This document shows, one piece after another, positions 5,140-20,209 of a stretch of DNA of 33,951 nucleotides. The position numbers and the translations under genes were made by a program. The first letter of the stretch is position 1, and every line of letters begins with the position of its first letter. The DNA is from Candidatus Neomarinimicrobiota bacterium (lineage in GTDB: Bacteria > Fidelibacterota > Marinisomatia > SCGC-AAA003-L08 > TS1B11): the NCBI GenBank assembly GCA_022560655.1, contig JADFSS010000016.1, positions 1-33,951 on the forward strand, in the 5' to 3' direction. Below the pieces are notes generated by a model. That model was not told the origin of the DNA, made no database searches, and saw nothing but the letters and a program-made list of their open reading frames with translations.

Positions 5140-5472
5140 GTGGAAAGTACAGAAGAGGAGGTAACAGCCATTCACTCCCGGAAAGCCAACCGAGCGTCGC
5201 TGGAACGCCTCCGCGATGAGATTGATGCGCTGGACAGGCGGCTGTTCACTGTGATCGCTGAACGTATGGCCCTGGTGACCGATATCGGCGGCCTGAAGCG
5301 CAAGCTGGGGCTGCCCACCAGCGACCCCGTGCGGGAGGCGCAGCTGAAGGCTCGGCTGAAGGAACGTACTGCGGGCGTTCTGGAGCCACGGCACATCGAG
5401 GAGCTGTCGACAGCCATTCTGCGTGTTTCCCGGGACCTCCAGGGAGGCGCTGAAACGGTTTCCCAGGACTGA
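5140..5472 (+). CDS. Chorismate mutase, AroQ class (monofunctional)
   Basis: This converts chorismate to prephenate, the first step shared by Phe and Tyr synthesis. The 110-residue, all-helical protein carries the AroQ-fold pattern: LERLRDEIDALDRRLFTVIAERM at about residues 21-43, GLKRK around 51-55, and SDPVREAQLKARL around 61-73. Arg24, Arg42, Lys53 and the DPVRE acid/arginine pair fall where the E. coli AroQ domain has its active-site residues. No regulatory or fused domain is present. The start is uncertain. GTG at 5140 is used here, but a strong AGGAGGT at 5156-5162 lies 7 nt before an in-frame ATT at 5170. It is the first gene of the aromatic cluster and is encoded upstream of the attenuator. 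Confidence 0.87.
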   Translation: MESTEEEVTAIHSRKANRASLERLRDEIDALDRRLFTVIAERMALVTDIGGLKRKLGLPTSDPVREAQLKARLKERTAGVLEPRHIEELSTAILRVSRDLQGGAETVSQD

Positions 5473-5504: not shown

Positions 5505-5533
5505 TTGCGGCGTACAACCGGAGGGCTTAACAT
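5505..5533 (+). promoter_or_regulatory. Weak candidate sigma70-type promoter upstream of small ORF and leader
   Basis: TTGCGG at 5505-5510 and TAACAT at 5528-5533 are separated by exactly 17 bases. They match the consensus boxes at 3 and 4 of 6 positions. The site would drive the small Arg-rich ORF, the leader peptide and the supraoperon independently of chorismate mutase. The match is weak and could be chance. Confidence 0.25.
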
Positions 5534-5593: not shown

Positions 5594-5794
5594 ATGGCAG
5601 AGAATCGAAGTGGGGATGAACGCCGCGACAATGGCGGGCGTCGGCTGGGGAACGACAGACGGGATGATAACACCACCAATGGCGCAGCCGTTGAGGAGGA
5701 CAGCAGGTCCAAGCCCGGACGCAGAGAGATCGAAGAGCGGAGAATCGGTGTCGAGCGGCGGGATTCCGCCCTGTTTATGACGCCTGTGAACTGA
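5594..5794 (+). CDS. Small Arg/Asp/Glu-rich protein of unknown function, probably translationally coupled to the leader peptide
   Basis: The predicted 66-residue protein is extremely charged and made of variants of an [D/E]RR-x(3-4)-[D/N/E]RR pattern: GDERRDNGGRRLGNDRRDD at the N-terminus and GRREIEERRIGVERRDS near the C-terminus. It has no predicted membrane segment. AGGAGA at 5581-5586 is well placed for the ATG at 5594 (7 nt spacing); a GTG at 5591 directly before it is the alternative. Its TGA (5792-5794) ends one base before the ATG of the aromatic leader peptide, which has no good ribosome-binding site of its own. Translation of this ORF may therefore feed ribosomes into the leader. I do not recognise a family. 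It could be a real protein or serve mainly as a translated leader. Confidence 0.5.
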   Translation: MAENRSGDERRDNGGRRLGNDRRDDNTTNGAAVEEDSRSKPGRREIEERRIGVERRDSALFMTPVN

Positions 5795-5795
5795 C

Positions 5796-5852
5796 ATGAA
5801 CTCGTTCGTGCCAACTTTTTTCTATTACTGGTGGTTTAGGAGTACGGGTTGA
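5796..5852 (+). CDS. Aromatic attenuator leader peptide (Phe-Phe-Tyr-Tyr-Trp-Trp-Phe)
   Basis: An 18-codon ORF encodes MNSFVPTFFYYWWFRSTG and ends with TGA. Codons 8-14 (5817-5837) are TTT TTC TAT TAC TGG TGG TTT, so seven consecutive codons cover all three aromatic amino acids. Such runs of control codons just upstream of a terminator are the hallmark of ribosome-mediated attenuation, as in E. coli trpL (Trp-Trp) and pheL (Phe-rich). Stalling on any of the three uncharged tRNAs would be sensed. An in-frame TGA at 5787-5789 means the ORF cannot start earlier. The Shine-Dalgarno is weak, but the stop of the preceding small ORF is 1 nt upstream, which suggests coupling. The peptide itself probably has no other function. 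Confidence 0.9.
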   Translation: MNSFVPTFFYYWWFRSTG

Positions 5853-5896
5853 CACTGCGACCCTGACGGATAATCCACACCACCACGCACTGTCAG

Positions 5897-5924
5897 CCCT
5901 ATCCAAAGCGGATAGGGTTTTTTT
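5897..5924 (+). terminator. Rho-independent terminator of the attenuator
   Basis: CCCTATCC (5897-5904), loop AAAGC, GGATAGGG (5910-5917), then seven T at 5918-5924. The stem is a perfect 8 bp. The T-run ends immediately before the trpE ATG at 5925. The 3' arm contains AGGG, 7 nt from that ATG, so the same hairpin could also hide the trpE ribosome-binding site. Confidence 0.92.
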
Positions 5925-7418
5925 ATGAAGCGCAATGGGAGCAACCGAAGCAGCATGACCTTCGACCAGTTCAGTGACCTTGCCCAACGGCATACCGCTG
6001 TGCCGGTATACCGCAAAGTTCTGGCCGACCTCCTTACACCGGTGGGAGCCTACATGCTCCTTACCCGGCGCTATGGGCCTGCTGTCCTGCTTGAATCTGT
6101 CGACCGGGGCCGGCAGCTGGCGCGGTATTCCTACATCTGCGTGAATCCGAGCCGTACGCTGACGAGCGCCGACGGCCAGACTACGCTGCGAAACGGCTCG
6201 GTCCGAGAGGAATTACAGGTCCCCTTCCTGACCAGCCTGCGAGACCAGCTGGCCGAGTACCGGGCTCCCCGTCTGCCGGATATCCCCGATTTTTACGGTG
6301 GTTGGGTGGGGTACCTGGGCTACGAGACCGCAGCCTGGCTGGAAGCTATCCCCATTCATTCCGCTGACGATGCAGACATCCCCGACGCCGTATTCATGCT
6401 TTTCGATACGGTCATGGCCTTTGACCACCTCAAGCGGGAAGTGATTATCTGCCACACAACATTGGTGGACCAGGCGGAGCCGCTGGAGCCACAGTACGAA
6501 GCCGCGCTTGCGCTGGTGGATGAACTTGGTGCGGCGCTACACACCGATATCGATTACCAGACGCCTGCAACCGTAGGCCACAGCGTACTCGAGAGTAATA
6601 TGACGCAGACAGGGTACATGTCAGCGGTGGTGCGGGCTAAAGACCATATCGTGGCGGGGGATGTTTTTCAACTGGTGCTGAGCCAGCGCTTCAGCAGGAA
6701 GAGCAAGGTGCAGCCGCTGACCCTCTATCGCGCTCTACGCAGCATCAACCCGTCCCCCTACATGTTCCTGCTGGAGCTGGATGACTTCGCGGTGATTGGG
6801 GCGTCGCCGGAACTGCTGGTCACCGTCGACCAGGGCGTCATGGAGGTGCGCCCGATTGCCGGGACGCGACCCAGGGGGGCCAGCCAGAGCGAGGATGCCC
6901 AGCTGGCCGAGGAGCTGCTGGCTGATGAGAAGGAACGAGCCGAACATCTCATGCTGGTAGACCTGGGCCGCAACGACGTGGGGCGGGTGAGCCGGTTCAA
7001 GTCGGTGTCGGTGAAGGAATTCATGGTGGTGGAGCAGTACAGCCACGTGATGCATATTGTCAGCGACATTCAAGGGGAGCTTGCCGACGGCCATGACGCG
7101 CTGGATGCCCTGGCGGCCGGCTTTCCCGCCGGCACGGTGACCGGCGCACCCAAGATACGGGCCATGGAACTGATCCACGAGCTGGAGCCTGACCGGCGGG
7201 GCATCTATGCCGGCGCCGTGGGCTACATGGATTTCCTGGGCAATCTGAACACCTGTCTCGCTATCCGGACCATGCTGCTCAAGGACGGGGTGGTGAGTTT
7301 TCAGAGCGGTGCGGGGATCGTGGCCGATTCCGACCCCGGCAGGGAGTATGACGAAACGGTGAGCAAGGCCGAAGCGATCATGCAGGCGGTGGATTTTGCG
7401 GAGCGGGGGCTGCAATGA
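5925..7418 (+). CDS. trpE: Anthranilate synthase component I
   Basis: With TrpG this makes anthranilate from chorismate and glutamine, the first Trp step. The 497-residue chorismate-binding enzyme shows KDHIVAGDVFQLVLSQRF, VRPIAGTRPRG, LVDLGRNDVGRVS, FPAGTVTGAPKIRAMELI and a C-terminal GAGIVADSDPGREYDET. LLES at residues 55-58 keeps the serine known to mediate Trp feedback inhibition in enteric TrpE, so allosteric control by Trp is likely. The ATG at 5925 directly abuts the terminator T-run and uses AGGG in the hairpin's 3' arm as the best Shine-Dalgarno. A second ATG at 5955 (MTFDQF) fits the usual family N-terminus but has no well-spaced site. The gene overlaps trpG by 4 nt. Confidence 0.97.
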   Translation: MKRNGSNRSSMTFDQFSDLAQRHTAVPVYRKVLADLLTPVGAYMLLTRRYGPAVLLESVDRGRQLARYSYICVNPSRTLTSADGQTTLRNGSVREELQVPFLTSLRDQLAEYRAPRLPDIPDFYGGWVGYLGYETAAWLEAIPIHSADDADIPDAVFMLFDTVMAFDHLKREVIICHTTLVDQAEPLEPQYEAALALVDELGAALHTDIDYQTPATVGHSVLESNMTQTGYMSAVVRAKDHIVAGDVFQLVLSQRFSRKSKVQPLTLYRALRSINPSPYMFLLELDDFAVIGASPELLVTVDQGVMEVRPIAGTRPRGASQSEDAQLAEELLADEKERAEHLMLVDLGRNDVGRVSRFKSVSVKEFMVVEQYSHVMHIVSDIQGELADGHDALDALAAGFPAGTVTGAPKIRAMELIHELEPDRRGIYAGAVGYMDFLGNLNTCLAIRTMLLKDGVVSFQSGAGIVADSDPGREYDETVSKAEAIMQAVDFAERGLQ

Positions 7419-7984
7419 TCCTGGTGGTGGATAACTACGACTCCTTTACCTACAACCTGGTGCAATATATCGGTGAGTTCGACGCGGATGTGAAAGTGGT
7501 GCGTAACGACGCGCTGACGGTGGAGGAGATACGACGGCTGGGTCCGGAGAAGATCGTCATATCCCCCGGGCCGGGGCGACCGGAGGATGCCGGTTTGTCG
7601 GTGGAACTGGTGCGGACCTTAGGGCCCACCTGCCCCATCCTGGGCGTATGCCTGGGACACCAGGCCGTGGCGCTGGCTTACAACGGTGCGGTGGTGCAGG
7701 CGCCGGAAATCATGCACGGCAAGCTGTCAACCATTGAGCATAACGGCGGCCCGCTGTATGCTGACATCCCTTCGCCCATTCAGGGGACGCGCTACCATTC
7801 GCTGGTGGTGGATGAGGGTTCGCTGCCGCCGGAGCTGGTGGTGAACGCCCGGAGCGAATCGGGGCTGGTGATGGGCTTCGCGCATCGCCGCCACCCGGTG
7901 GTGGGCCTGCAGTTTCACCCCGAGTCGATCCTAACGGATTATGGACTGCAAATCATTGAAAACTTCATCCTGAGGTTCCCTTGA
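7415..7984 (+). CDS. trpG: Anthranilate synthase component II, glutamine amidotransferase
   Basis: This 189-residue class I glutaminase releases ammonia from glutamine for TrpE. It begins MILVVDNYDSFTYNLVQY. The nucleophile Cys79 is in GVCLGHQ, and the partners His168 and Glu170 are in LQFHPES; PGPGRPEDAG at 51-60 forms part of the oxyanion region. It is monofunctional, not fused to TrpD as in enteric bacteria. An ATGA overlap links it to trpE, and another 4-nt overlap links it to trpD. An identical enzyme could also serve p-aminobenzoate synthesis (PabA), which cannot be excluded from sequence. Confidence 0.96.
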   Translation: MILVVDNYDSFTYNLVQYIGEFDADVKVVRNDALTVEEIRRLGPEKIVISPGPGRPEDAGLSVELVRTLGPTCPILGVCLGHQAVALAYNGAVVQAPEIMHGKLSTIEHNGGPLYADIPSPIQGTRYHSLVVDEGSLPPELVVNARSESGLVMGFAHRRHPVVGLQFHPESILTDYGLQIIENFILRFP

Positions 7985-8979
7985 GGGACGTCCTGAACAA
8001 GCTGCTGGAGCGGGAAGAATTGACCCTGAGCGAGGCGCGGGAAACCATGCTGCAAATCATGTCGGGCGCATTTGACGACGTGCAGATGGCCGGTTTTCTG
8101 GTGGCCCTCAGGGCTAAGGGGGAGACCGCTACCGAGATCGCCGGATTCGCTCAGGCCATGCGGGAAAACATGGTGAAAGTGCCGGTCACAGTGGAGGCCA
8201 TCGACATGTGTGGCACCGGGGGCGACGCCAAGGGTACCTTCAATATCTCGACGGTGGCCTCGTTTATTGTCGCGGGGGCGGGGGTGCCGGTGGCCAAACA
8301 CGGCAATCGCTCCATCACCAGCAGTTCGGGGTCGGCGGACGTGCTGGCGGCACTGGGGGTGGACATCGAGATGGCGCCGGAAAAGGTTGGGCGGGCGGTG
8401 GAGACATTGGGACTGGGGTTCATGTTCGCGCCCGTGCTGCACCCGGCCATGCGCCACGTCATGCCGGCCCGGAAGGGGCTGGGCATACGCACGGTGTTCA
8501 ACCTGCTGGGGCCGCTCAGCAACCCTGCGGGCGTCCGGCGGCAGGTGGTGGGGGTTTTCGACGGCACGCTCACCGAAACGCTGGCCGAAGTGTTTAGGAT
8601 ACTGGGCGCCCGGACAGCGTTGCTGGTCCACGGCGAGGACGGGCTGGACGAGCTGACCACCACCGCTGCCACCGGCGTCAGTGAGCTAAAGGATTCGGGC
8701 GACATCACGTCGTTTACGGTCCATGCAGGCAGCCTGGGGCTGCCGCGCGCGTCGCTGGATGATCTGCAGGGGGGCTCCCCGGAGGAGAATGCCGTCATCA
8801 CTCAGGAGATTCTCCAGGGGCAAAAGGGCCCCAGGCGGGATATCGTCCTGCTCAACGCGGCGGCCGGGCTGAAGGTGGGGGGCAAGGCCGCCGACCTGCA
8901 GGAGGGGCTGGTCCTGGCGGCCGAGTCGATTGACAGTGGCCGAGCCTTGAAAGTATTAAACGAGTTGGTGGAGTTCTAG
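7981..8979 (+). CDS. trpD: Anthranilate phosphoribosyltransferase
   Basis: This transfers phosphoribose from PRPP to anthranilate. The 332-residue protein carries the family signatures CGTGGD (77-82), KHGNR (106-110), SGSADVLAALG (116-126) and NLLGPLSNP. It starts with TTG at 7981, within the TTGA overlap with trpG's stop and just downstream of TGAGG. Its TAG stop is followed directly by the trpC ATG in the same frame. The length is normal for the stand-alone enzyme. Confidence 0.97.
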   Translation: MRDVLNKLLEREELTLSEARETMLQIMSGAFDDVQMAGFLVALRAKGETATEIAGFAQAMRENMVKVPVTVEAIDMCGTGGDAKGTFNISTVASFIVAGAGVPVAKHGNRSITSSSGSADVLAALGVDIEMAPEKVGRAVETLGLGFMFAPVLHPAMRHVMPARKGLGIRTVFNLLGPLSNPAGVRRQVVGVFDGTLTETLAEVFRILGARTALLVHGEDGLDELTTTAATGVSELKDSGDITSFTVHAGSLGLPRASLDDLQGGSPEENAVITQEILQGQKGPRRDIVLLNAAAGLKVGGKAADLQEGLVLAAESIDSGRALKVLNELVEF

Positions 8980-9771
8980 ATGTCTCTGCTCGGCGAGATC
9001 ATCGCCCACAAAGAGGTTGAGGTCCGCGGCCGGGAGCAGCGCCTACCGCTGCCGGCGCTACCTCCGCGACGGGACTCGGTGCGGGACTTCGCCGCAGCAC
9101 TGGCCCGCCCCGGTTTGCAGGTGATTGCCGAGGTGAAACGAAAATCACCCTCCCAGGGGACCCTTAACGATCAGGTGCGGCCGGCCGAGTTGGGCAGGGC
9201 CTATGAGGAGGCGGGGGCGGCGGCCATCTCGGTGCTCACCGATACGGCCTACTTCGGTGGTAGTTTGGAGCACCTGGCGGAGGTGCGCGCGGCGGTGACC
9301 GTGCCTGTGCTCAGGAAAGATTTCATCATCGGCGAGTACCAGGTGCACGAATCCTACAGCGCGGGGGCCGATGCCATTCTGCTCATCGCCGACGCACTGG
9401 ATGGACCCACGCTGGAGCGGCTCGCCGGGCTGGCCCAAGCGCTGGGGCTGCACCTGCTGGTGGAGGGCTACAGCGACGAAAGTCTGGCCCGCATAGCGCG
9501 GCTGGCGCCGCCGGTGGCAGGCATCAATTCACGGGACCTCACGACGATGGAGGTGAACCTTGAGGCGCTGCTGGAGCGGCGTATTCTCCTGCCCCCGGGC
9601 GCGCTCCATGTAGCCGAATCGGGCATCGGCAGCCCGGGCGACCTGCGGCGAGTCAGCGCGGCAGGCTACCACGGGGCGCTCATCGGCACGGCTCTGCTCA
9701 CAGGCGGCGACCCGGGCGCCACACTGCGACGCTTTTTGTCAGCCCTGACCCAGGTGGAGGTGGAGAAATGA
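8980..9771 (+). CDS. trpC: Indole-3-glycerol phosphate synthase
   Basis: This closes the indole ring by converting CdRP to indole-3-glycerol phosphate. The 263-residue TIM barrel shows IAEVKRKSPS (Glu51, Lys53), LTDTAYFGGSLEHL, LRKDFII with the catalytic-type Lys113, GINSRDL and AESGI. It is separate from TrpF, unlike the enteric fusion. It abuts trpD (TAG then ATG, same frame) and overlaps trpF by 4 nt. Confidence 0.97.
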   Translation: MSLLGEIIAHKEVEVRGREQRLPLPALPPRRDSVRDFAAALARPGLQVIAEVKRKSPSQGTLNDQVRPAELGRAYEEAGAAAISVLTDTAYFGGSLEHLAEVRAAVTVPVLRKDFIIGEYQVHESYSAGADAILLIADALDGPTLERLAGLAQALGLHLLVEGYSDESLARIARLAPPVAGINSRDLTTMEVNLEALLERRILLPPGALHVAESGIGSPGDLRRVSAAGYHGALIGTALLTGGDPGATLRRFLSALTQVEVEK

Positions 9772-10403
9772 TCGCTGTAAAAATCTGCGGCATCACCCGC
9801 GTGGAGGACGCCCAGCTGGCGTCCGACCTGGGGGCGGTGGCACTGGGCTTTATCTGCTACCCCTTGAGCCCGCGCTATGTAACTCCGGCCAAAGCGACGG
9901 CTATCGTCGGCGAGCTGGATGCAGGTATCCGGAAGGTAGGGGTGTTTGTGAATGCGCCGCCAGGTGAGATCAACGCCGTCGTCCGTAAGGTGGGGCTGGA
10001 TATGGCGCAGCTCAGCGGCTCGGAATCGCCGGAGGAGTGCCAGCAGATTGATGTGCCCGTTATCAAGGCGGTGCGCGTGGGCCTGGATTTCAACCCCGCT
10101 GTTGCCGCCAGCTTCGACGTGCACGCCATCATGGTCGATACGTACAACCCGAGCCTCTACGGCGGCACTGGAGAAACCTTTGACTGGTCACGATTGGATC
10201 GGGACGTATTTGTCCAGCCCATGATTCTCTCGGGCGGCCTGCACCCGGAGAATATCCTACAAGGCATTGAGGCCCTGCGTCCCGACGCAGTGGATGTAAA
10301 CAGCGGCGTGGAGACCAGCCCCGGCGTGAAAGACCCCGCCAAGCTGGAGCGGCTGTTCAGCGTCTTGAAACCCACCGAGGCCAGCAGCGTCCATGTCTTC
10401 TGA
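9768..10403 (+). CDS. trpF: Phosphoribosylanthranilate isomerase
   Basis: This catalyses the Amadori rearrangement of phosphoribosylanthranilate to CdRP. The 211-residue barrel starts [15 protein letters not shown] with the catalytic-type Cys7. Asp124 is in IMVDT, followed by [20 protein letters not shown] and [15 protein letters not shown] supply the phosphate-binding end. The usual QLHG reads QLSG here. The start overlaps trpC by 4 nt and the end overlaps trpB by 11 nt. Confidence 0.96.
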
Positions 10404-11607
10404 TGTGACCAGCAGCCGTTACGCACAGCCGGACAGCCGCGGGCGTTACGGCGATTACGGTGGCCAGTATGTGCCGGAGACCCTGCTCCCGGCCCTGAAC
10501 GAGCTGGCAGCAGCTTATGCCGAGGCGCAGGCCGACCCGGCTTTCCAGACCGAGCTGGACCACCTGTGGCAACACTATGCCGGTCGGCCGACCCCCTTGT
10601 ATTACGCCGAGCGCCTCAGCGACCAGCTGGGCATCGGACTTTATCTGAAGCGGGAAGACCTGGCCCACACCGGCGCTCATAAGATCAACAATGCGCTGGG
10701 GCAGGTGCTGCTGGCCCGGCGCATGGGCAAGCGCCGTCTCATCGCCGAAACGGGGGCAGGTCAGCACGGGGTAGCAACGGCAACCGTGGCGGCGCGCTTT
10801 GGCATGGACTGCGTCGTCTACATGGGCGCGGAGGACATGCGGCGCCAGAGGTTAAACGTGTTCCGCATGGAGCTGCTGGGAGCCGAGGTCCGCGCCGTCA
10901 CCAGTGGCACCCGCACGTTGAAGGACGCCACCAGCGAAGCCCTGCGCCACTGGGTGGCCCATGTGGAGGACAGCTACTATCTGCTCGGATCGGTGGTAGG
11001 CCCGCACCCCTATCCGCTGCTGGTGCGGGATTTTCAATCGGTGATCGGGCGGGAGACCCGTGAGCAATACGCCGAGCAAGTGGGCGGGCTGCCCGATGTT
11101 CTCATCGCCTGCGTGGGCGGCGGCAGCAATGCGCTGGGGCTGTTCCATCCCTTCCTGGACGACCCTGTGCAGATGATTGGCGTGGAAGCCGCCGGAAAGG
11201 GGCTCGCCTCCGGGGCCCACGCTGCAACCCTCGCGCGGGGCAGCAAAGGGGTGCTGCACGGCGCCGCCAGCTACCTGCTTCAATCCGCTGATGGGCAGGT
11301 ACAATTGCCCCATTCCATCAGCGCCGGTCTGGACTACCCCGGCGTGGGGCCGGAGCACAGTTACCTGAAAGACCTGGGCCGGGTAGCATACCTCACCGCC
11401 AGCGATGATGAGGCGCTGGCCGCCATGCGGTGGCTCACCGAAAGCGAGGGCATCCTGCCGGCGCTGGAGACGGCCCATGCCCTGGCCGTCCTGCAACAGC
11501 GCAAAATTGACCTGGCCGCAGGGAGCGACGTGGTCCTGTGCCTGTCAGGGCGGGGCGACAAAGACGTGCAGACCGTTGCGGACGCCCTGGGGAGCCCGGT
11601 GTCATGA
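10393..11607 (+). CDS. trpB: Tryptophan synthase beta chain
   Basis: This PLP enzyme joins indole and serine to form Trp. The 404-residue protein shows [15 protein letters not shown], the PLP lysine Lys97 in HTGAHKINN, the catalytic-type Glu119 in [11 protein letters not shown], and [10 protein letters not shown] for the cofactor phosphate. It is the classical TrpB1 type that pairs with TrpA, encoded directly after it with an ATGA overlap. The ATG at 10393 lies inside the end of trpF. Confidence 0.97.
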
Positions 11608-12407
11608 GGCGCATCGCGGAGCTGTTTCACTCCCCGGGCAAGAAACTCATCCCGTTTATCACGGCCGGGTTCCCCAGCCTGGACAGCACCCTGCCACTCG
11701 TGCTGGCAGCGGAGCAGGCCGGCGCCCACATGGTGGAGTTGGGCGTGCCTTTCTCCGACCCTATGGCGGACGGCCCGGTGATTCAGCAGACCAGCCAAAC
11801 GGCGCTGGAAAACGGCGTTACGCTGCCGTGGATTTTGGACACGGTGTCGGCCATTCGCAAGCAGTCGCGCATCCCGTTGATCCTCATGGGCTATGTCAAT
11901 CCATTGCTACGGATGGGTCTGGAAACTTTTTTGTCCCGGGCCAAAGAGGCGGGTGTTGACGGCATCATTATCCCTGACCTACCTCCCGAGGAAGGGACCG
12001 AACTGTTCGAGGGTGCCCGTGAGCGCATGCTCAGCACCATATTTCTGGTGGCTCCCAACACTCCTGACCAGCGTATCCAGCAGCTGTCGCGGGAGGCGGA
12101 GGACCTGCTGTACGCCGTCTCCATACTGGGCGTCACGGGCTCGGTCCTGGCGGCGCAACAACAGTTGGACGCCTACCTGGACCGGGTGCGGGCGGCATCG
12201 GATGCGCCCTTTGTGGTTGGTTTCGGCGTGGCAACCCCAGACGACGTCAGCCGGGTCGCCGCCAAGGCGGACGGCGTGGTGGTGGGCAGTGCCCTGCTGG
12301 CTCGCCTGCAAACTGCCTCCGACCCGGTAGACGAGGCGCACCGCTACCTGCAGTCCCTGGCCGCGGCACTGCCCGCTGCGGGCCCATCTATAGAGGCAGG
12401 GACATGA
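11604..12407 (+). CDS. trpA: Tryptophan synthase alpha chain
   Basis: This cleaves indole-3-glycerol phosphate to indole, which is channelled to TrpB. The start is the ATG at 11604 in the ATGA overlap with trpB; the frame is open further upstream but that part is not TrpA-like. The 267-residue barrel shows FITAGFPS and [15 protein letters not shown] with Glu45 and Asp56 at the positions of the E. coli catalytic Glu49 and Asp60. It also shows [20 protein letters not shown] and [11 protein letters not shown]. It overlaps pheA by 4 nt. Confidence 0.97.
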
Positions 12408-13731: not shown

Positions 13732-14778
13732 ATGCTGGTCATCATGGACCCGCGCGCCACGGAAGCCGACATCCAGCGGGTGAAGGAGCGGATTCAGGAG
13801 CTGGGCTACACGGCCCACCCCATTCCCGGCGCCTCGCGTCTGGCCATCGGGGTGACGGGCAACCGGGGCATCGAGGACCGCATTTACCTGGAGGGGCTAC
13901 CGGGGGTGCAACAGGTGATTCCGGTGACCAAGCCCTACAAGCTGGCGAGCCGGGAGACGCGTCCCGAAAATTCTGTGGTGAAGGTCGGTGAGGCGAGTTT
14001 CGGTGACGGTTCGGTGGCCATGATCGCCGGTCCGTGCGCCGTGGAGAGTCGCGATCAGACCCTGCGTATCGCCGAACGCGTGGCCGAACTGGGTGCCCAT
14101 ATGCTTCGGGGGGGCGCCTACAAGCCCCGGACTTCGCCGTATGCCTTTCAGGGGCTGGGGGAGACCGGCCTGGAGATTCTTGCCGAGGCCCGCGAGCAGA
14201 CCGGATTGCCCGTTGTGACCGAAGTGGTGGACGCCAGTCAGGCGCCCGTGGTAGCGCAATATGTCGATATGCTGCAAATCGGCACCCGGAACATGCAGAA
14301 TTTCGAGCTGCTCAAGGAGGTGGGCAAGCTGGGCATGCCGGTGCTGCTGAAGCGGGGCATGAGCGCAACTCTTGATGAAACCCTCATGTCGGCAGAGTAC
14401 CTCATGTCTCACGGCACGCACGCCGTGGTCATCTGTGAGCGGGGGGTGCGAACCTTCGCCAGCCATGCCCGCAGCACACTGGATGTGAGCGTGATCCCGG
14501 CACTGAAGAGATTAAGCCATCTGCCCATCATTGTGGATCCCAGCCATGCCAGCGGTAACCGGACCAGCGTTATTCCCCTGGCCATGGCAGGGGTAGGCGC
14601 CGGCGCCGACGGCTTGATGGTGGACGTACATGACGACCCCGAGCACGCGCTGGTGGATGGCCCGCAGGCCCTGTTGCCGGAAGATTTCCGTGAGCTGATG
14701 GCCCTGCTGGGTAAGGTGGTCCCAGCCCTGGGGAGAACGTTCCTGGTAGCCCGGGCGAAGAAGCAGGAGGCTCATTAG
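13732..14778 (+). CDS. aroF: 3-deoxy-7-phosphoheptulonate (DAHP) synthase, type I beta with N-terminal regulatory domain
   Basis: This is the first shikimate-pathway step, condensing erythrose 4-phosphate and PEP. The 348-residue protein has a ferredoxin/ACT-like N-terminal domain (about residues 1-75: MLVIMDPRATEADIQRVKERI...), then the barrel with IAGPCAVES, GGAYKPRTSPYAFQGLG, QIGTRNMQNFELL, KRGMSAT, CERGVRTF and IVDPSHASGNR. In the Thermotoga homologue this N-terminal domain gives feedback inhibition by aromatic amino acids, so it may be the allosteric entry control here. The gene abuts tyrA and is 3 nt from aroA. Confidence 0.95.
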   Translation: MLVIMDPRATEADIQRVKERIQELGYTAHPIPGASRLAIGVTGNRGIEDRIYLEGLPGVQQVIPVTKPYKLASRETRPENSVVKVGEASFGDGSVAMIAGPCAVESRDQTLRIAERVAELGAHMLRGGAYKPRTSPYAFQGLGETGLEILAEAREQTGLPVVTEVVDASQAPVVAQYVDMLQIGTRNMQNFELLKEVGKLGMPVLLKRGMSATLDETLMSAEYLMSHGTHAVVICERGVRTFASHARSTLDVSVIPALKRLSHLPIIVDPSHASGNRTSVIPLAMAGVGAGADGLMVDVHDDPEHALVDGPQALLPEDFRELMALLGKVVPALGRTFLVARAKKQEAH

Positions 14779-14781
14779 CCC

Positions 14782-16041
14782 ATGCGCCTGCCGGGTGACA
14801 AGTCCATCTCCCACCGGGCCCTGATGCTGGCCGCCCTGGCCAACGGCCCGTCACGGCTGACCAAGCTCGCCTCCGGGTCTGATGTGCAGGCCACGCGACG
14901 CTGTCTTCAGCAGTGCGGCATTATGATCACCACCGGCGGTGAGGTTACCGTGGTGGAAGGGCGGGGCGGGGCCTTCGATGCGCCTCAGGCTGACCTGGAT
15001 TGCGGCAACTCCGGCACGACGGCGCGGCTGTTGGCGGGCCTGCTGGCGGGGCGCGGGATAGCTGCTCGCATCACCGGGGATGCCTCCCTGTCGCGGCGCC
15101 CGATGGAACGCATTACGGTGCCGCTCAGACAGCTGGGCGCCAACATCGCACCAGCGGCCGGCGGGACCCTCCCGCTGGACATACGGCCCGTGGTGCTTGG
15201 CTCGCTGGACTACACCTTGCCGGTGCCGAGCGCGCAGGTCAAATCGGCCCTGCTGCTGGCGGGGCTGGCGAGCGAGGGCATCGTTACCGTGCGGGAGCCG
15301 GTGCCCACGCGCGATCACACGGAGATCATGCTGCGCGCCCTGGGCATCGATACCGGGGGACCGGATGACGGAGTGACCGTAAGTTCCGGGCGTGCCGCAC
15401 TACCCGCTTTCGACCTGCAGGTGCCCGGCGATGCCTCCTCGGCAGCTTTCCTGGTGGCGCTGGCCGTGCTGGTGCCCGGAGCGGTGGTCAGCTTCGAGCA
15501 CCTGTTGCTGAACCCCACCCGCCTGGGCTTCTATCGCACCCTTCAGCGCATGGGCGGCCATGTAACGTGGTCCGCGCAGGGCACCGAGCTGGGTGAATCG
15601 GTGGGCCAGCTCAGCGCGCAAAGTTCGGGCCTGCGGGGCATCGCCCTCGCTGGGGATGACATCCCCGCCGTCATCGATGAGCTGCCGATTCTGGCGGTGC
15701 TGGCTACCCAGGCGGTGGGGGAAACCGTTGTACGTGACGCCGGTGAGCTGCGCTACAAGGAGAGCGACCGCCTAACGGCTATCTGCGAGAATATTGCTCG
15801 CCTGGGCGGCGAGGTGGAGCGGCGCCCCGACGGGTTCCGCATTCAGGGGCCGACACCCCTGACAGGCGCACCCATCGCCACCTATGGCGACCATCGCATT
15901 GCCATGGCCTTCGCGGTGGCGGGGCACATCGCTTCCGGAGACACTATCCTTGACGACCCCGACTGCGTGGAGGTCTCCCTACCCGGCTTTCATGAGTTGG
16001 CACGCGCCGTGACGATGGGGCGCGAGGCGGTGGAGTCGTGA
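14782..16041 (+). CDS. aroA: EPSP synthase (3-phosphoshikimate 1-carboxyvinyltransferase), class II-like
   Basis: This transfers the enolpyruvyl group from PEP to shikimate 3-phosphate. The 419-residue protein starts MRLPGDKSISHRA, so the catalytic Lys is residue 7. That is about 15 residues shorter at the N-terminus than E. coli AroA. No earlier start exists, because the aroF TAG lies in frame 3 nt upstream. It shows the four motifs used to define class II enzymes: GDKSIS, SAQVK, RDHTE and NPTR. It also has NSGTTARLL, KESDRL and YGDHRIAMA. Class II enzymes are typically less sensitive to the PEP-mimic inhibitor glyphosate; that is family knowledge, not tested here. It overlaps aroE by 4 nt. 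Confidence 0.95.
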   Translation: MRLPGDKSISHRALMLAALANGPSRLTKLASGSDVQATRRCLQQCGIMITTGGEVTVVEGRGGAFDAPQADLDCGNSGTTARLLAGLLAGRGIAARITGDASLSRRPMERITVPLRQLGANIAPAAGGTLPLDIRPVVLGSLDYTLPVPSAQVKSALLLAGLASEGIVTVREPVPTRDHTEIMLRALGIDTGGPDDGVTVSSGRAALPAFDLQVPGDASSAAFLVALAVLVPGAVVSFEHLLLNPTRLGFYRTLQRMGGHVTWSAQGTELGESVGQLSAQSSGLRGIALAGDDIPAVIDELPILAVLATQAVGETVVRDAGELRYKESDRLTAICENIARLGGEVERRPDGFRIQGPTPLTGAPIATYGDHRIAMAFAVAGHIASGDTILDDPDCVEVSLPGFHELARAVTMGREAVES

Positions 16042-16949
16042 AACACTTTGCGGTGATTGGGCACCCCATCGGCCACAGCCTCAGCCCGGTGCTCCACAAC
16101 GAGGTATTCAGACTGCTGGGACTGGCCGCCCGCTATGACACCCTGGACATGGGTCCGGCCGCCCTGCCTGAGGTAGCCCGGCAGCTGCGGGCAGGGGAAC
16201 TGGCCGGTATCAATATCACGCTGCCACACAAGACAGGCTTCCTGCCATACCTTGACGAGGTTGCGCCCGAAGCCGCCGCCATCGGCGCGGTGAACTGCGT
16301 GGCGGTGGAGGAGGGCAGGCTCATGGGCAGCAACACCGACCTGACCGGCCTGGTGGACGCACTGCGGCGGAGTGGCTTTGAGGTCCGGGGGTGCCACGGA
16401 CTCGTCCTGGGGGCCGGGGGGGCGGCGCGGACCGCGGTGCGGGCACTGCTGCTCCTGGGCGCCAGCCAAATCTGCGTGGCGGCCCGGCGGGAGGCACCCC
16501 GGTCGGAGCTCGTCCACGACTTCGAGCCGCGGGTGGGCGAGGCCATCCTTTCGGAGCAGCCACTGGGACCGCAACTTGACACGGCACCGTTCCAGCTGAT
16601 CATCAACGCCACGCCGGTGGGTATGTGGCCGTCAGACCATGAGACCCCCCTAATGCCCCCACAGGTTAACAGCGGACAAGTCATCTTTGACCTGATCTAC
16701 CGGCCGGAGAACACCCTGCTTCTGAACATGGCGCGGGAGCGGGGCTGTCAGACGATCACGGGTCTGGACATGTTTATTGCCCAGGCGCTGGGCTCGCTGG
16801 GAATCTGGTTCCCGCAGACCGTTTACGGCACCACCGGGCAACTGCACCCGGCCCTGGAGCTGGAGGTACTCAAATCGTTGTTGCGCTCAGCCGTGGAGGA
16901 TCACGCGGTCAGTCTTGCTGCGGAAACAGTTGCGGGCGGTAGATCATGA
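16038..16949 (+). CDS. aroE: Shikimate dehydrogenase
   Basis: This performs NADPH-dependent reduction of 3-dehydroshikimate to shikimate. The 303-residue protein begins KHFAVIGHPIGHSLSPVLHN. The catalytic-type Lys65 is in NITLPHK and Asp101 in GSNTD; GAGGAAR forms the nucleotide-binding loop, and NATPVGMWP and DLIYRPENT are also typical. The GTG start at 16038 lies within the GTGA overlap with aroA, and the end overlaps aroC by 4 nt. It is slightly longer than E. coli AroE (272) because of a C-terminal extension. Confidence 0.96.
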   Translation: MKHFAVIGHPIGHSLSPVLHNEVFRLLGLAARYDTLDMGPAALPEVARQLRAGELAGINITLPHKTGFLPYLDEVAPEAAAIGAVNCVAVEEGRLMGSNTDLTGLVDALRRSGFEVRGCHGLVLGAGGAARTAVRALLLLGASQICVAARREAPRSELVHDFEPRVGEAILSEQPLGPQLDTAPFQLIINATPVGMWPSDHETPLMPPQVNSGQVIFDLIYRPENTLLLNMARERGCQTITGLDMFIAQALGSLGIWFPQTVYGTTGQLHPALELEVLKSLLRSAVEDHAVSLAAETVAGGRS

Positions 16950-18112
16950 TGCGCAAACTGCGCTGGCTGACGGCCGGCGAATCTCACGGTAAGGGGCTGG
17001 TGGGAATCATCGAGGGGCTGCCGGCCGAGCTGGAGATCGACGAGGCGTATATCGCCTTCCACCTGGCCCGGCGTCAGCGCGGTCACGGCCGGGGAAAGCG
17101 CATGGCCATCGAGCGCGACCGGGCGGAAATTTTCACCGGCGTAAGGCATGGCAAGACCCTGGGCTCCCCTGTTGCCCTGATCCTGCCCAATAAAGACTGG
17201 CCGAACTGGCAGCACATCATGTCGCTGGAACCCCCCCAACGCGAGGTAAAACCGGTGACCCTGCCCCGACCCGGTCACGGTGACCTGGCAGGGGTGAAAA
17301 AATATGGCTTTTCCGACATCCGCAACGTACTGGAACGGGCCAGCGCGCGGGAGACGGCTATGAGGGTTGCTTTGGGCAGTGTGGCCCGTAAATTCCTGAG
17401 TGAGTTGGAAATGGAGGTGGGCAGCCGCGTGGTATCCATTCACAATGTTTACGACAGAACGGAACCGGCAACTGATCTCACCCCGGAGCAGCTCAATGCC
17501 CGGGTGGATGACTCGCCCGTACGATGCCTTGACTCACAGGCTGAGAAGGCCATGATCGAGGTCATCGATGCCGCCAAAAGTGCCGGTGACAGCGTGGGCG
17601 GCACGTTCGAGGTGATCGCTACCGGCATCCCCTACGGGCTGGGCAGCCACGTGCAATGGGACCTGAAGTTAAAAGCCCGGTTGAGTGCTGCGCTTAGCTC
17701 CATTCAGGCCATTGAGGGGGTGGAGATCGGCCTCGGATTCGCCGGAACAGAGCGGCTGGGAAGCGCCTTTCAAGACGAGATTATCAAGGATGAGGCGAGC
17801 GGCCGGCTTACGCGCGCCAGCAATCACGCCGGCGGCATTGAGGCTGGGATGAGTAATGCCCAGCCTATCGTTGTGCGGGCGGCCATGAAACCGCTGCCCA
17901 CCCTCATTAAGCCGTTGCGCTCGGTGGATATCGCCACCGATGAGCCGGGTCTGGCGCACAAGGAAAGGACCGATTCCTGCGCGGTCCCGGCGGCCTCAAT
18001 TGTCGCCGAGAGTATGGTCTGTCTGGTCCTGGCAGATGCCGTTCTGGAAAAGTTTGGCGGCGACAGCATGACCCAGGTTAAGGCCCACATGAGCGCGACG
18101 GCTCAATATTAG
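16946..18112 (+). CDS. aroC: Chorismate synthase
   Basis: This is the FMN-dependent last step of the shikimate pathway, from EPSP to chorismate. The 388-residue protein shows LTAGESHGKGLVGIIEGLP, RRQRGHGRGKRM, RPGHGDLAGVKKYG, RASARETAMRVALG and MSNAQPIVVRAAMKPLPT, all typical. The double ATG at 16946 lies in the overlap with aroE. A 14-nt gap to aroK containing GGAGGGAG is one of only two intergenic gaps inside the trpE-aroQ block. Confidence 0.97.
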   Translation: MMRKLRWLTAGESHGKGLVGIIEGLPAELEIDEAYIAFHLARRQRGHGRGKRMAIERDRAEIFTGVRHGKTLGSPVALILPNKDWPNWQHIMSLEPPQREVKPVTLPRPGHGDLAGVKKYGFSDIRNVLERASARETAMRVALGSVARKFLSELEMEVGSRVVSIHNVYDRTEPATDLTPEQLNARVDDSPVRCLDSQAEKAMIEVIDAAKSAGDSVGGTFEVIATGIPYGLGSHVQWDLKLKARLSAALSSIQAIEGVEIGLGFAGTERLGSAFQDEIIKDEASGRLTRASNHAGGIEAGMSNAQPIVVRAAMKPLPTLIKPLRSVDIATDEPGLAHKERTDSCAVPAASIVAESMVCLVLADAVLEKFGGDSMTQVKAHMSATAQY

Positions 18113-18126
18113 GGCTGGAGGGAGTT

Positions 18127-18678
18127 TTGACATCTCATAACGCCAGGGGCGGCAGCAATATCTGCCTGATCGGCATGGCGGGTAGCGGTAAGTCTACCGT
18201 TGGGGCGCTTTTGGCCCGGCGCCTGGAGTACGCTTTTGTCGACCTGGATGAAGAAATTGCCAGCCAGTTGGGGCTCAGCATCGGGGAGATATTCGAGCGG
18301 TTGGGCGAAGACCGATTTCGACAGGAGGAGCAGCGCCTGCTGGCCCAGCGATGCGCAGGGGAGCGGCAGGTGATCGCCTGTGGGGGTGGGGTTGTGACGA
18401 CGCCCGCCAACGGGAACCACCTGCGCCAGCAAACGACCATCTACTTACAGGCGACTCCTAAAACCCTGGCCCAGCGGGTGGGTGAGGGATCCGGTCGTCC
18501 GCTGCTGACAGGCATGGCGCCCATAAGGCGGCGGCTGGCGGACCTGCTGAAGGAGCGGGAGGCGCTCTATCGGGGTGCCAGCCAGATGGCCCTTGGCACT
18601 GACGGAAGGCAGCCGGCTGCGCTGGCGGATGAACTACTTCAGATGCTGACGCTGGAGCCCCAGGCATCGGCGCCGTGA
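18127..18678 (+). CDS. aroK: Shikimate kinase
   Basis: This phosphorylates shikimate at the 3-hydroxyl with ATP. The 183-residue P-loop kinase has Walker A GMAGSGKST (16-24), the substrate-binding Asp pair in VDLDEEI (39-41), the GGG loop at 86-88 and the lid arginine in GRPLL (Arg124). The start is TTG at 18127, fixed by GGAGGGAG a few bases upstream and by the position of the P-loop. It overlaps aroB by 4 nt (GTGA). Confidence 0.95.
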   Translation: MTSHNARGGSNICLIGMAGSGKSTVGALLARRLEYAFVDLDEEIASQLGLSIGEIFERLGEDRFRQEEQRLLAQRCAGERQVIACGGGVVTTPANGNHLRQQTTIYLQATPKTLAQRVGEGSGRPLLTGMAPIRRRLADLLKEREALYRGASQMALGTDGRQPAALADELLQMLTLEPQASAP

Positions 18679-19784
18679 CCACTGTCACCGTCGACCTGGG
18701 GCCGAGGAGCTATGATGTTCAGATTGGCCGGGGGCTGCTAGCTTCGGCAGCGGGCATCCTGGCAAAGGTGTGCCCCGGTGAGCGCGTGGGGCTGATCAGC
18801 AACCCGACGGTTCACAAGTTGTACGGCCAGCCATTGGAAACGTCCCTGTCGGCGGCCGGCTACCAGGTGACAAGAGCGCTGGTCCCGGATGATGAGCAAG
18901 CCAAGGAGTTGGCGACGGTGTCCCGGCTTTACGATACCCTTATCAGAGCTGAGCTGGACCGCACCTCGATCATCGTGGCCCTCGGCGGCGGAGTGGTGGG
19001 CGACATCGCGGGCTTTGTAGCTGCCACGCTATTTCGGGGCCTTCCATACATCCAGATACCGACGACCCTGCTGGCAATGGTGGATGCCTCCATCGGGGGA
19101 AAAACGGGTGTCAACCACCCACAAGGCAAGAACCTTATTGGCGCCTTTCACCAACCCCGGGCCGTGATCATCGACCCAGAGCTGTTGCGGACGCTGCCCC
19201 GGCGGGAGATCACTTCCGCCTGCGCCGAGATTATCAAGGCTGCGGTGGTTACAGACGGAGATTTTTTCAAACAGTTGGCCCGGGGAATCCCAAAGCTGGT
19301 GGAGCTCACCGATCTTTCGTTTGTGGAGGATACTATTGTCCGGGCCTGTCGCATCAAGGCCGGCATCGTTGCAGAGGACGAGCAGGAGCGTGCGCTTCCG
19401 GGTGAGCTGGGCCGCAGGGTTCTGAACTTTGGCCACACCATCGGTCATGCCCTGGAGGTGACCATGGGTTATGGTGCACTCAGGCATGGAGAGGCTGTGG
19501 CAATGGGCATGGTGGCCGCAGGGCACATCAGCGTACAGGAGGCAGGCTTTTCTACAGATGACCTGGAGCGGCTCGCTGAACCACTGGGGCATCTGCAATT
19601 GCCGGCACTACCGGCCATTGATAAGTCTGAGGTTCGATCCATTTTGCGTCACGATAAGAAAGTCCACCATGGAGCGCTACATTTTATTCTGCTGGAGTCG
19701 TTGGGACGGCCCATAGCCAACAGCACGGTCACCGATGAACAAATCGATTCAGCACTGGATCATATTCAATGGAGGTTCAATTGA
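18675..19784 (+). CDS. aroB: 3-dehydroquinate synthase
   Basis: This is the NAD- and metal-dependent cyclisation of DAHP to 3-dehydroquinate. The 369-residue protein shows ALGGGVVGDIAGFVAATLFRG, PTTLLAMVDASIGGKTGVN, SACAEIIKAA, NFGHTIGHALE and HGEAVAMGM. The last three supply the metal-binding Glu and His residues. The GTG start at 18675 lies in the overlap with aroK; the gene ends in a TTGA overlap with aroQ. Confidence 0.96.
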   Translation: MTTVTVDLGPRSYDVQIGRGLLASAAGILAKVCPGERVGLISNPTVHKLYGQPLETSLSAAGYQVTRALVPDDEQAKELATVSRLYDTLIRAELDRTSIIVALGGGVVGDIAGFVAATLFRGLPYIQIPTTLLAMVDASIGGKTGVNHPQGKNLIGAFHQPRAVIIDPELLRTLPRREITSACAEIIKAAVVTDGDFFKQLARGIPKLVELTDLSFVEDTIVRACRIKAGIVAEDEQERALPGELGRRVLNFGHTIGHALEVTMGYGALRHGEAVAMGMVAAGHISVQEAGFSTDDLERLAEPLGHLQLPALPAIDKSEVRSILRHDKKVHHGALHFILLESLGRPIANSTVTDEQIDSALDHIQWRFN

Positions 19785-20209
19785 GACTTCTAGTCATTCA
19801 TGGACCTAATCTCAACCTTCTGGGCCGACGGGAGACGGATATCTATGGCACGGAATCCCTGGAGGAGCTCAATGCCTGGCTCAGGGAGCAGCCTGAGCTG
19901 GACAATGATACCCTGACCTTTTATCAGAGCAATCACGAGGGGGGCCTCATAGATTGCCTGCACAACCACGTGGGCAAGGTGGGCGGTGCGGTTATCAATG
20001 CCGGCGCCCTGTCGCACTATAGCTACGCTCTACGCGACGCGATCGCCGCCGTGGATTACCCGGTGGTGGAAGTTCACTTGTCCAACATTGCCAAGCGGGA
20101 GGCCTTCAGGAAAAAGTCGGTGCTGGCGGATGTCTGCCTGAAGCAAATCATCGGGAAGGGCAAACTTGGCTACCTGCAGGGCTTAAAAGCGGCGAGGAAG
20201 GCCAAGTAG
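19781..20209 (+). CDS. aroQ: 3-dehydroquinate dehydratase, type II
   Basis: This dehydrates 3-dehydroquinate to 3-dehydroshikimate. The TTG at 19781 is chosen because GGAGG (19771-19775) is 5 nt upstream, it makes a TTGA overlap like the other junctions, and it gives the usual N-terminus RLLVIHGPNLNLLG. An ATG at 19769 would add four residues. The 142-residue protein shows the catalytic-type Tyr22 (DIYGTESLEEL), YQSNHEGGLID, INAGALSHYS and VEVHLSNI, all type II marks. It is the last gene of the supraoperon and converges on the histidine kinase, 16 nt away. A CCGCCGGCGG palindrome lies between them, without a T-run. Confidence 0.95.
   Translation: MRLLVIHGPNLNLLGRRETDIYGTESLEELNAWLREQPELDNDTLTFYQSNHEGGLIDCLHNHVGKVGGAVINAGALSHYSYALRDAIAAVDYPVVEVHLSNIAKREAFRKKSVLADVCLKQIIGKGKLGYLQGLKAARKAK

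Follow-up and report, generated by a model that had tools for sequence, protein, structure and literature searches.

The ilvGMEDA and thrABC operons of Escherichia coli include multivalent attenuators, and in Yanofsky's model of attenuation of the E. coli trp operon the antiterminator and the terminator exclude each other and the ribosome is released at the leader stop codon. Multivalent attenuation has been established for branched-chain operons, and the ilvL leader of Corynebacterium glutamicum includes Ile, Val and Leu codons in a single peptide, MTIIRLVVVTARRLP (PMC11857589). The AroR leader from C. glutamicum has the sequence Phe-Tyr-Phe and responds to Phe, while the availability of Tyr is without effect despite the Tyr codon (PMC11802643). 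A 2005 study predicted attenuators upstream of aromatic supraoperons, the part of it considered here giving no leader composition (PMC1173090).

We describe a locus found in a 33,951-nucleotide stretch of DNA from a Candidatus Neomarinimicrobiota bacterium (contig JADFSS010000016.1; the whole stretch is referred to as the window). As in the ilv leaders of C. glutamicum (ilvL) and E. coli (ilvGMEDA), its leader includes codons for all the end products of a shared pathway, but the amino acids are branched-chain in the former and aromatic in the latter. C. glutamicum aroR is similar in having more than one aromatic amino acid in a leader that precedes a shikimate gene (PMC11802643), but no Trp is reported in its motif and it controls the aroF operon only. 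The E. coli trpL leader shares with the window leader its location before trpE, the exclusive antiterminator and terminator, and the predicted release at the stop codon (PMC11802643); the window leader adds Phe and Tyr codons to the Trp pair, and its operon adds pheA, tyrA and the shikimate genes. Attenuation by the availability of charged tRNA-Phe, as proposed here, is also a property of the E. coli pheL and pheST leaders (PMC11802643), which sense one amino acid each. The uORFC-13-1 motif has a comparable organization, a predicted upstream ORF that includes one or more Phe codons being combined with a terminator ahead of the shikimate gene aroF, but it concerns one gene and Phe only, with no Tyr or Trp run described (PMC8632094). 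The Sinorhizobium meliloti trp attenuator RNA, rnTrpL, starts at the leader AUG, like the probably leaderless leaders of many relatives of the window; unlike the window leader, it is a Trp leader and precedes trpE(G) only (PMC7298713).

Multivalent attenuators are already known, and what is new is the combination of sensed amino acids. The earlier note on this DNA had taken known leaders to sense one amino acid, a premise that is not supported by ilvL (PMC11857589) and AroR (PMC11802643), which carry codons for several. The note knew of no described attenuator of this composition, and the literature searched gave no leader that reads all of Phe, Tyr and Trp, the coverage being incomplete with most subscription journals outside it. 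If the reading proposed below is right, this would be the first documented attenuator reading all three aromatic amino acids; its control would extend over the entire pathway, from DAHP synthase down to each of the three end products, and it predicts regulation in a group known here from mostly fragmented genomes.

The leader and its operon

Translation of the region preceding trpE (Table 1) confirmed the 18-codon leader with consecutive Phe-Phe-Tyr-Tyr-Trp-Trp-Phe codons that had been claimed before. In all six reading frames of the window there is no other run of at least five aromatic codons, and the genome has a single copy of the 18-nt core of this one. No Rfam match above the gathering score was obtained anywhere in the window. 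Sixteen genes identified with Pfam, trpEGDCFBA-pheA-tyrA-aroF-aroA-aroE-aroC-aroK-aroB-aroQ, follow the leader, all in the same orientation and with short gaps or overlaps between neighbours, in agreement with the earlier claim of an operon for the synthesis of all three aromatic amino acids. The locus has the short leader ORF with a codon run for the product of the operon that is typical of ribosome-mediated attenuators and, as in the multivalent attenuators of the ilv and thr type, a single leader includes codons for several end products. Nucleotide 5955 is more likely than 5925 to be the start of trpE, because alignments with relatives begin at MTFDQF.

The search for prephenate dehydratase and prephenate dehydrogenase genes covered the 2.33-Mb genome (128 contigs, 95% complete) and gave one of each, both in this operon. 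A second DAHP_synth_1 match in this genome, on contig C8, could be KDO-8-P synthase, which belongs to the same family. The chorismate mutase gene, which also precedes the leader in many relatives, is located 5' of the attenuator and is therefore outside its control.

Table 1. Features of the aromatic locus in the window
Feature	Position	Strand	Evidence
Chorismate mutase gene (CM_2)	5140..5472	+	Pfam PF01817, E 2.3e-18
Putative sigma70-type promoter, TTGCGG-N17-TAACAT	5505..5533	+	Weak consensus match, recurrence in relatives; inferred
Small Arg/Asp-rich ORF	5594..5794	+	Translation; stop 1 nt before leader start (TGA-C-ATG)
Leader peptide ORF, 18 codons and stop, MNSFVPTFFYYWWFRSTG	5796..5852	+	Translation; homologous position in 55 leaders
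Regulatory codons Phe-Phe-Tyr-Tyr-Trp-Trp-Phe	5817..5837	+	Translation; stall scan: 7/7 inside sensing window
Antiterminator 5' arm, overlaps leader stop codon	5846..5859	+	Duplex search, stall scan, f1 alignment
Antiterminator 3' arm, shares 5897-5899 with terminator stem	5886..5899	+	Duplex search, stall scan, f1 alignment
Intrinsic terminator, stem 5897-5904/5910-5917 and seven T	5897..5924	+	Folds, alignment, scan
trpE	5955..7418	+	Pfam; TIGR00564 above cut-off; start by homology; in-frame ATG also at 5925
trpG	7415..7984	+	PF00117
trpD	7981..8979	+	PF00591
trpC	8980..9771	+	PF00218
trpF	9768..10403	+	PF00697
trpB	10393..11607	+	PF00291; conserved trpB position and HMM
trpA (ORF limits; true start probably further in)	11538..12407	+	PF00290
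pheA, prephenate dehydratase; sole one found in genome	12404..13006	+	PF00800
tyrA, prephenate dehydrogenase; sole one found in genome	12976..13731	+	PF02153
aroF, DAHP synthase (class I, B. subtilis type)	13732..14778	+	PF00793; TIGR01361 above cut-off
aroA, EPSP synthase	14782..16041	+	PF00275
aroE, shikimate dehydrogenase	16038..16949	+	PF08501 (N-terminal domain only)
aroC, chorismate synthase	16946..18112	+	PF01264
aroK, shikimate kinase	18127..18678	+	PF01202
aroB, dehydroquinate synthase	18675..19784	+	PF01761
aroQ, type II dehydroquinase	19769..20209	+	PF01220

Alternative structures of the leader RNA

An intrinsic terminator, CCCTATCC-AAAGC-GGATAGGG followed by seven T, lies between the leader and the first gene, and the 8-bp stem proposed for it in the earlier note was borne out; its pairs are kept in 98.6% of cells in an alignment of nine leaders from the family of the window (f1). 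The leader fold is more stable than those of dinucleotide shuffles, with a z value of -2.4 for the whole and -3.9 for nucleotides 5845-5924. An antiterminator is formed by pairing of nucleotides 5846-5854 with 5891-5899 and of 5856-5859 with 5886-5889. Its existence had been claimed correctly, but not its limits, given as 5842-5854/5891-5902, for which the folds give 5846-5859/5886-5899. The protector stem that had been proposed at 5808-5815/5848-5855 is complementary at seven of eight positions by eye but is absent from the predicted folds. Many leaders still form the antiterminator when no ribosome is present, and the protector stem 1:2, which would maintain termination of an untranslated leader, is not predicted in the window.

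The evidence for the antiterminator comes from a duplex search and from the f1 family alignment. The duplex is stronger than in shuffles at p≤0.05 in 43 of the 55 leaders; in the nine f1 leaders its pairs are found in 93.6% of cells, compared with 34-40% when the partner is slid, and compensatory evidence consists of nine two-sided changes, with four pairs changed on both sides. Pair counts are limited to these nine leaders because MAFFT alignment of the whole leader class shifts the terminator arms between groups. A gapless helix search was rejected since it missed leaders in which the arm is further from the stop.

In equilibrium folds the terminator wins at every ribosome position; equilibrium folding alone was dropped as a test of the switch for this reason, and the model therefore requires that the structures compete kinetically, as they do in E. 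coli trp. We carried out a stall scan, in which the nascent RNA up to the terminator 5' arm was folded with a ribosome mask at each codon. With the A site on codons F8 to F14, 4.0-8.2 nt of the terminator arm were paired by the antiterminator, a number that fell to 0.9-2.1 nt from R15 to the stop codon, and varying the ribosome mask from +8 to +15 shifted the outcome by at most a single codon. The masked folding that the earlier note had suggested as a check shows no switch at equilibrium but does show it in nascent RNA with a ribosome mask. In these computations, and consistent with the covariation, the antiterminator and the terminator exclude each other according to the position of the ribosome. 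The position predicted for the switch codon, relative to the last aromatic codon, is between -1 and +2 in 28 of 33 genera versus 17.7 expected when positions were permuted between genera, and none of 5000 permutations reached 28.

Codon set, operon content and competing readings

A TrpE search covered 245 genomes of the phylum, and the surroundings of the matches were compared. Leaders precede trpE in 55 genomes of the phylum, that of the window and 54 others. Within the family of the window (e.g., MIAVRKHNYFYVWFTGAG, MATYNQLAYYYFWFLRTG, MISTRLSLFYFYYWWQPPQG and MKQTYTTNYFSYYWWFTPTG) the order of the codons and their neighbours vary and the aromatic set is kept, and in a group with the sequence NYYSWYWFF the variation in the aromatic codons consists of synonymous third-position changes and Tyr/Phe exchanges. 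Both the run of F/Y/W codons and the covarying stems, whose lack in relatives the earlier note had named as a refutation, are kept.

To compare leaders and operons, the latter were typed with profiles built for this analysis and the densest nine codons were taken as the core of each leader. The core includes Phe, Tyr and Trp in 31 of the 34 leaders that precede operons with shikimate, pheA or tyrA genes after trp. Phe is missing from the core in L109, L113 and L120, all of them before operons without pheA, and Phe codons are less numerous in leaders of operons without pheA (p 0.003, with no adjustment for kinship). Related genomes are not independent of each other. Before trp-only operons there are seven leaders in five genera; their cores are dominated by Trp, with all three amino acids in two of the seven, and some Phe and Tyr codons are still present in L080 and L101. 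The mean core has 0.4 Phe, 0.6 Tyr and 2.6 Trp codons in trp-only leaders compared with 1.7, 2.5 and 1.9 in trp+aro leaders, and the difference in Phe plus Tyr has p values of 0.0001 by leader and 0.001 by genus, both unadjusted for kinship. In the tree of TrpE, f23 and f29, both of them trp-only families, are one clade, sister to f25, which has operons without pheA and leaders rich in Tyr and Trp.

Outside the phylum, 30 Bacteroidota loci with the closest TrpE were compared, and WWW or WW is present in the leaders of most of them. One Bacteroidota group (L132-L135, L137) has an HYFGWWWF leader, and its operon, as read in L183, includes only trp genes among the profiles tested. The same pattern as in the window was found in the Acidobacteriota genome G705 (L182, L178), in which the leader MKPAIQNYYFWWYYLSGWLVPF and a terminator precede trpEGDCFBA-aroF-tyrA; the aromatic codon pattern had 28 matches in Acidobacteriota, with one located before trpE among 20 loci examined. 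We lean slightly towards the view that the leaders represent a phylum-wide class of aromatic OR-gate attenuators, whose codons would have been rewritten with each gain or loss of a pathway branch by the operon (Trp alone; Tyr and Trp where pheA is missing; Phe, Tyr and Trp where the supraoperon is complete), with independent origin or spread in Acidobacteriota. The relatives constitute a natural experiment that sets leader codons against operon content over dozens of genomes, and as a consequence the evolution of multi-input attenuators is directly testable.

The codons, the switch geometry and the downstream genes all match the sensing of Phe, Tyr and Trp by one attenuator, as the earlier note had proposed, and we consider it very likely that the locus attenuates transcription by a ribosome-mediated mechanism and serves as an OR-sensor for the three amino acids. 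A ribosome would follow the RNA polymerase on the leader along the FFYYWWF codons. When all three charged tRNAs are plentiful it would reach the stop codon inside the antiterminator 5' arm and cover this arm, and the terminator would end transcription before trpE. A shortage of any one charged tRNA would cause a stall on the cognate codon, leaving the 5' arm free to pair with the 3' arm, which would block the base of the terminator stem and allow transcription of the whole 16-gene operon. Actual translation of the leader, kinetic competition between the structures and a response to each amino acid are elements that we infer, and AroR, with a Tyr codon and no response to Tyr (PMC11802643), is a warning for the last of them.

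That example also bears on a different reading, in which the locus would in effect be an attenuator for Trp, or for one amino acid, and the Phe and Tyr codons would be passengers with little regulatory effect. Trp codons are present in every leader, trp-only operons and the Bacteroidota sampled often have WWW leaders, and AroR responds to Phe and not to Tyr (PMC11802643). Passenger codons are nevertheless difficult to reconcile with the retention of Phe and Tyr codons in 31 of 34 trp+aro leaders and their scarcity in most trp-only ones, with the location of all seven codons inside the predicted sensing window, and with the dependence of the only Phe and Tyr branch enzymes of the genome on this operon, and we regard this reading as unlikely. 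Less likely still, at a level that we consider slight, is that a terminator and a translated small ORF operate without codon-specific stalling, for example by sensing general translation or growth rate. The stability of the terminator in all equilibrium states and the formation of the antiterminator without a ribosome in many leaders would be compatible with such a device, but a codon-specific design, in which the switch codon is near the end of the aromatic run, is found repeatedly in different genera, and the antiterminator covaries. Chance association of an aromatic-rich short ORF with an ordinary terminator has nothing in its favor other than the small size of the ORF; it is already refuted by the conservation of the same arrangement before trpE in 55 genomes, the window has no other run of five aromatic codons, and its probability is negligible.

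Translation start of the leader and other loci

The OR-sensor reading supposes that the leader is translated, and a Shine-Dalgarno motif is absent within 18 nt of the start in every leader, that of the window included. In the window the leader follows the small Arg/Asp-rich ORF, which is preceded by an AGGAG motif and had no match in Pfam or NCBIfam. The UGA-N-AUG spacing between the stop of this ORF and the leader start, found in the window, L064, L065 and L066, suggests that translation of the leader is coupled to it. Eight of the nine f1 genomes (the window, L064, L065, L066, L067, L068, L082 and L083) have an ORF of this kind, with repeated DRR motifs, between the chorismate mutase gene and the leader. 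The putative promoter ahead of the small ORF was not detected by a consensus promoter scan of the window, but five other f1 genomes also have a TTGC..-N17-TA..AT pair ahead of this ORF. Outside f1, many families (f3, f6, f7, f9, f17, f24, f25 and others, without Shine-Dalgarno motif; e.g., L110 and L104) have a -10-like hexamer whose end is 5 to 10 nt away from the start codon of the leader, on its 5' side, and because of this location the leader mRNAs of many of these families are probably leaderless.

No recognisable leader or terminator was found in L074, L075 and L076 (genus g8), all of which have a trp operon; those of L074 and L076 also include pheA, tyrA and aro genes, and the sister genome L073 keeps the leader. 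In L064 (G009) a break within trpC interrupts the operon and a 1537-aa ORF follows, the remaining aromatic genes being outside the stretch examined, which points to either a rearrangement or an assembly error. L120 and L122 (genus g44) have TrpE on a very long branch and operons with trp and shikimate genes without pheA or tyrA, the L120 leader including IWWYNY; a replacement by transfer is possible. A class II DAHP synthase identified with Pfam takes the place of class I in L079, and a gene of about 1.3 kb is found at the position of the class I aroF in L070, L079, L089, L100, L103, L081 and others, its size and place suggesting that class II enzymes are present in families beyond that of L079, with the leader type kept.

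As a positive control, a leader with His codons, MLYNVHHHHHHTDSHGDPGGTAP, followed by a terminator was found before hisG in the genome of the window (L126, contig C43), where attenuation is probably in use. Similar leaders with His runs are present in two other genomes of the family (L124 and L127).
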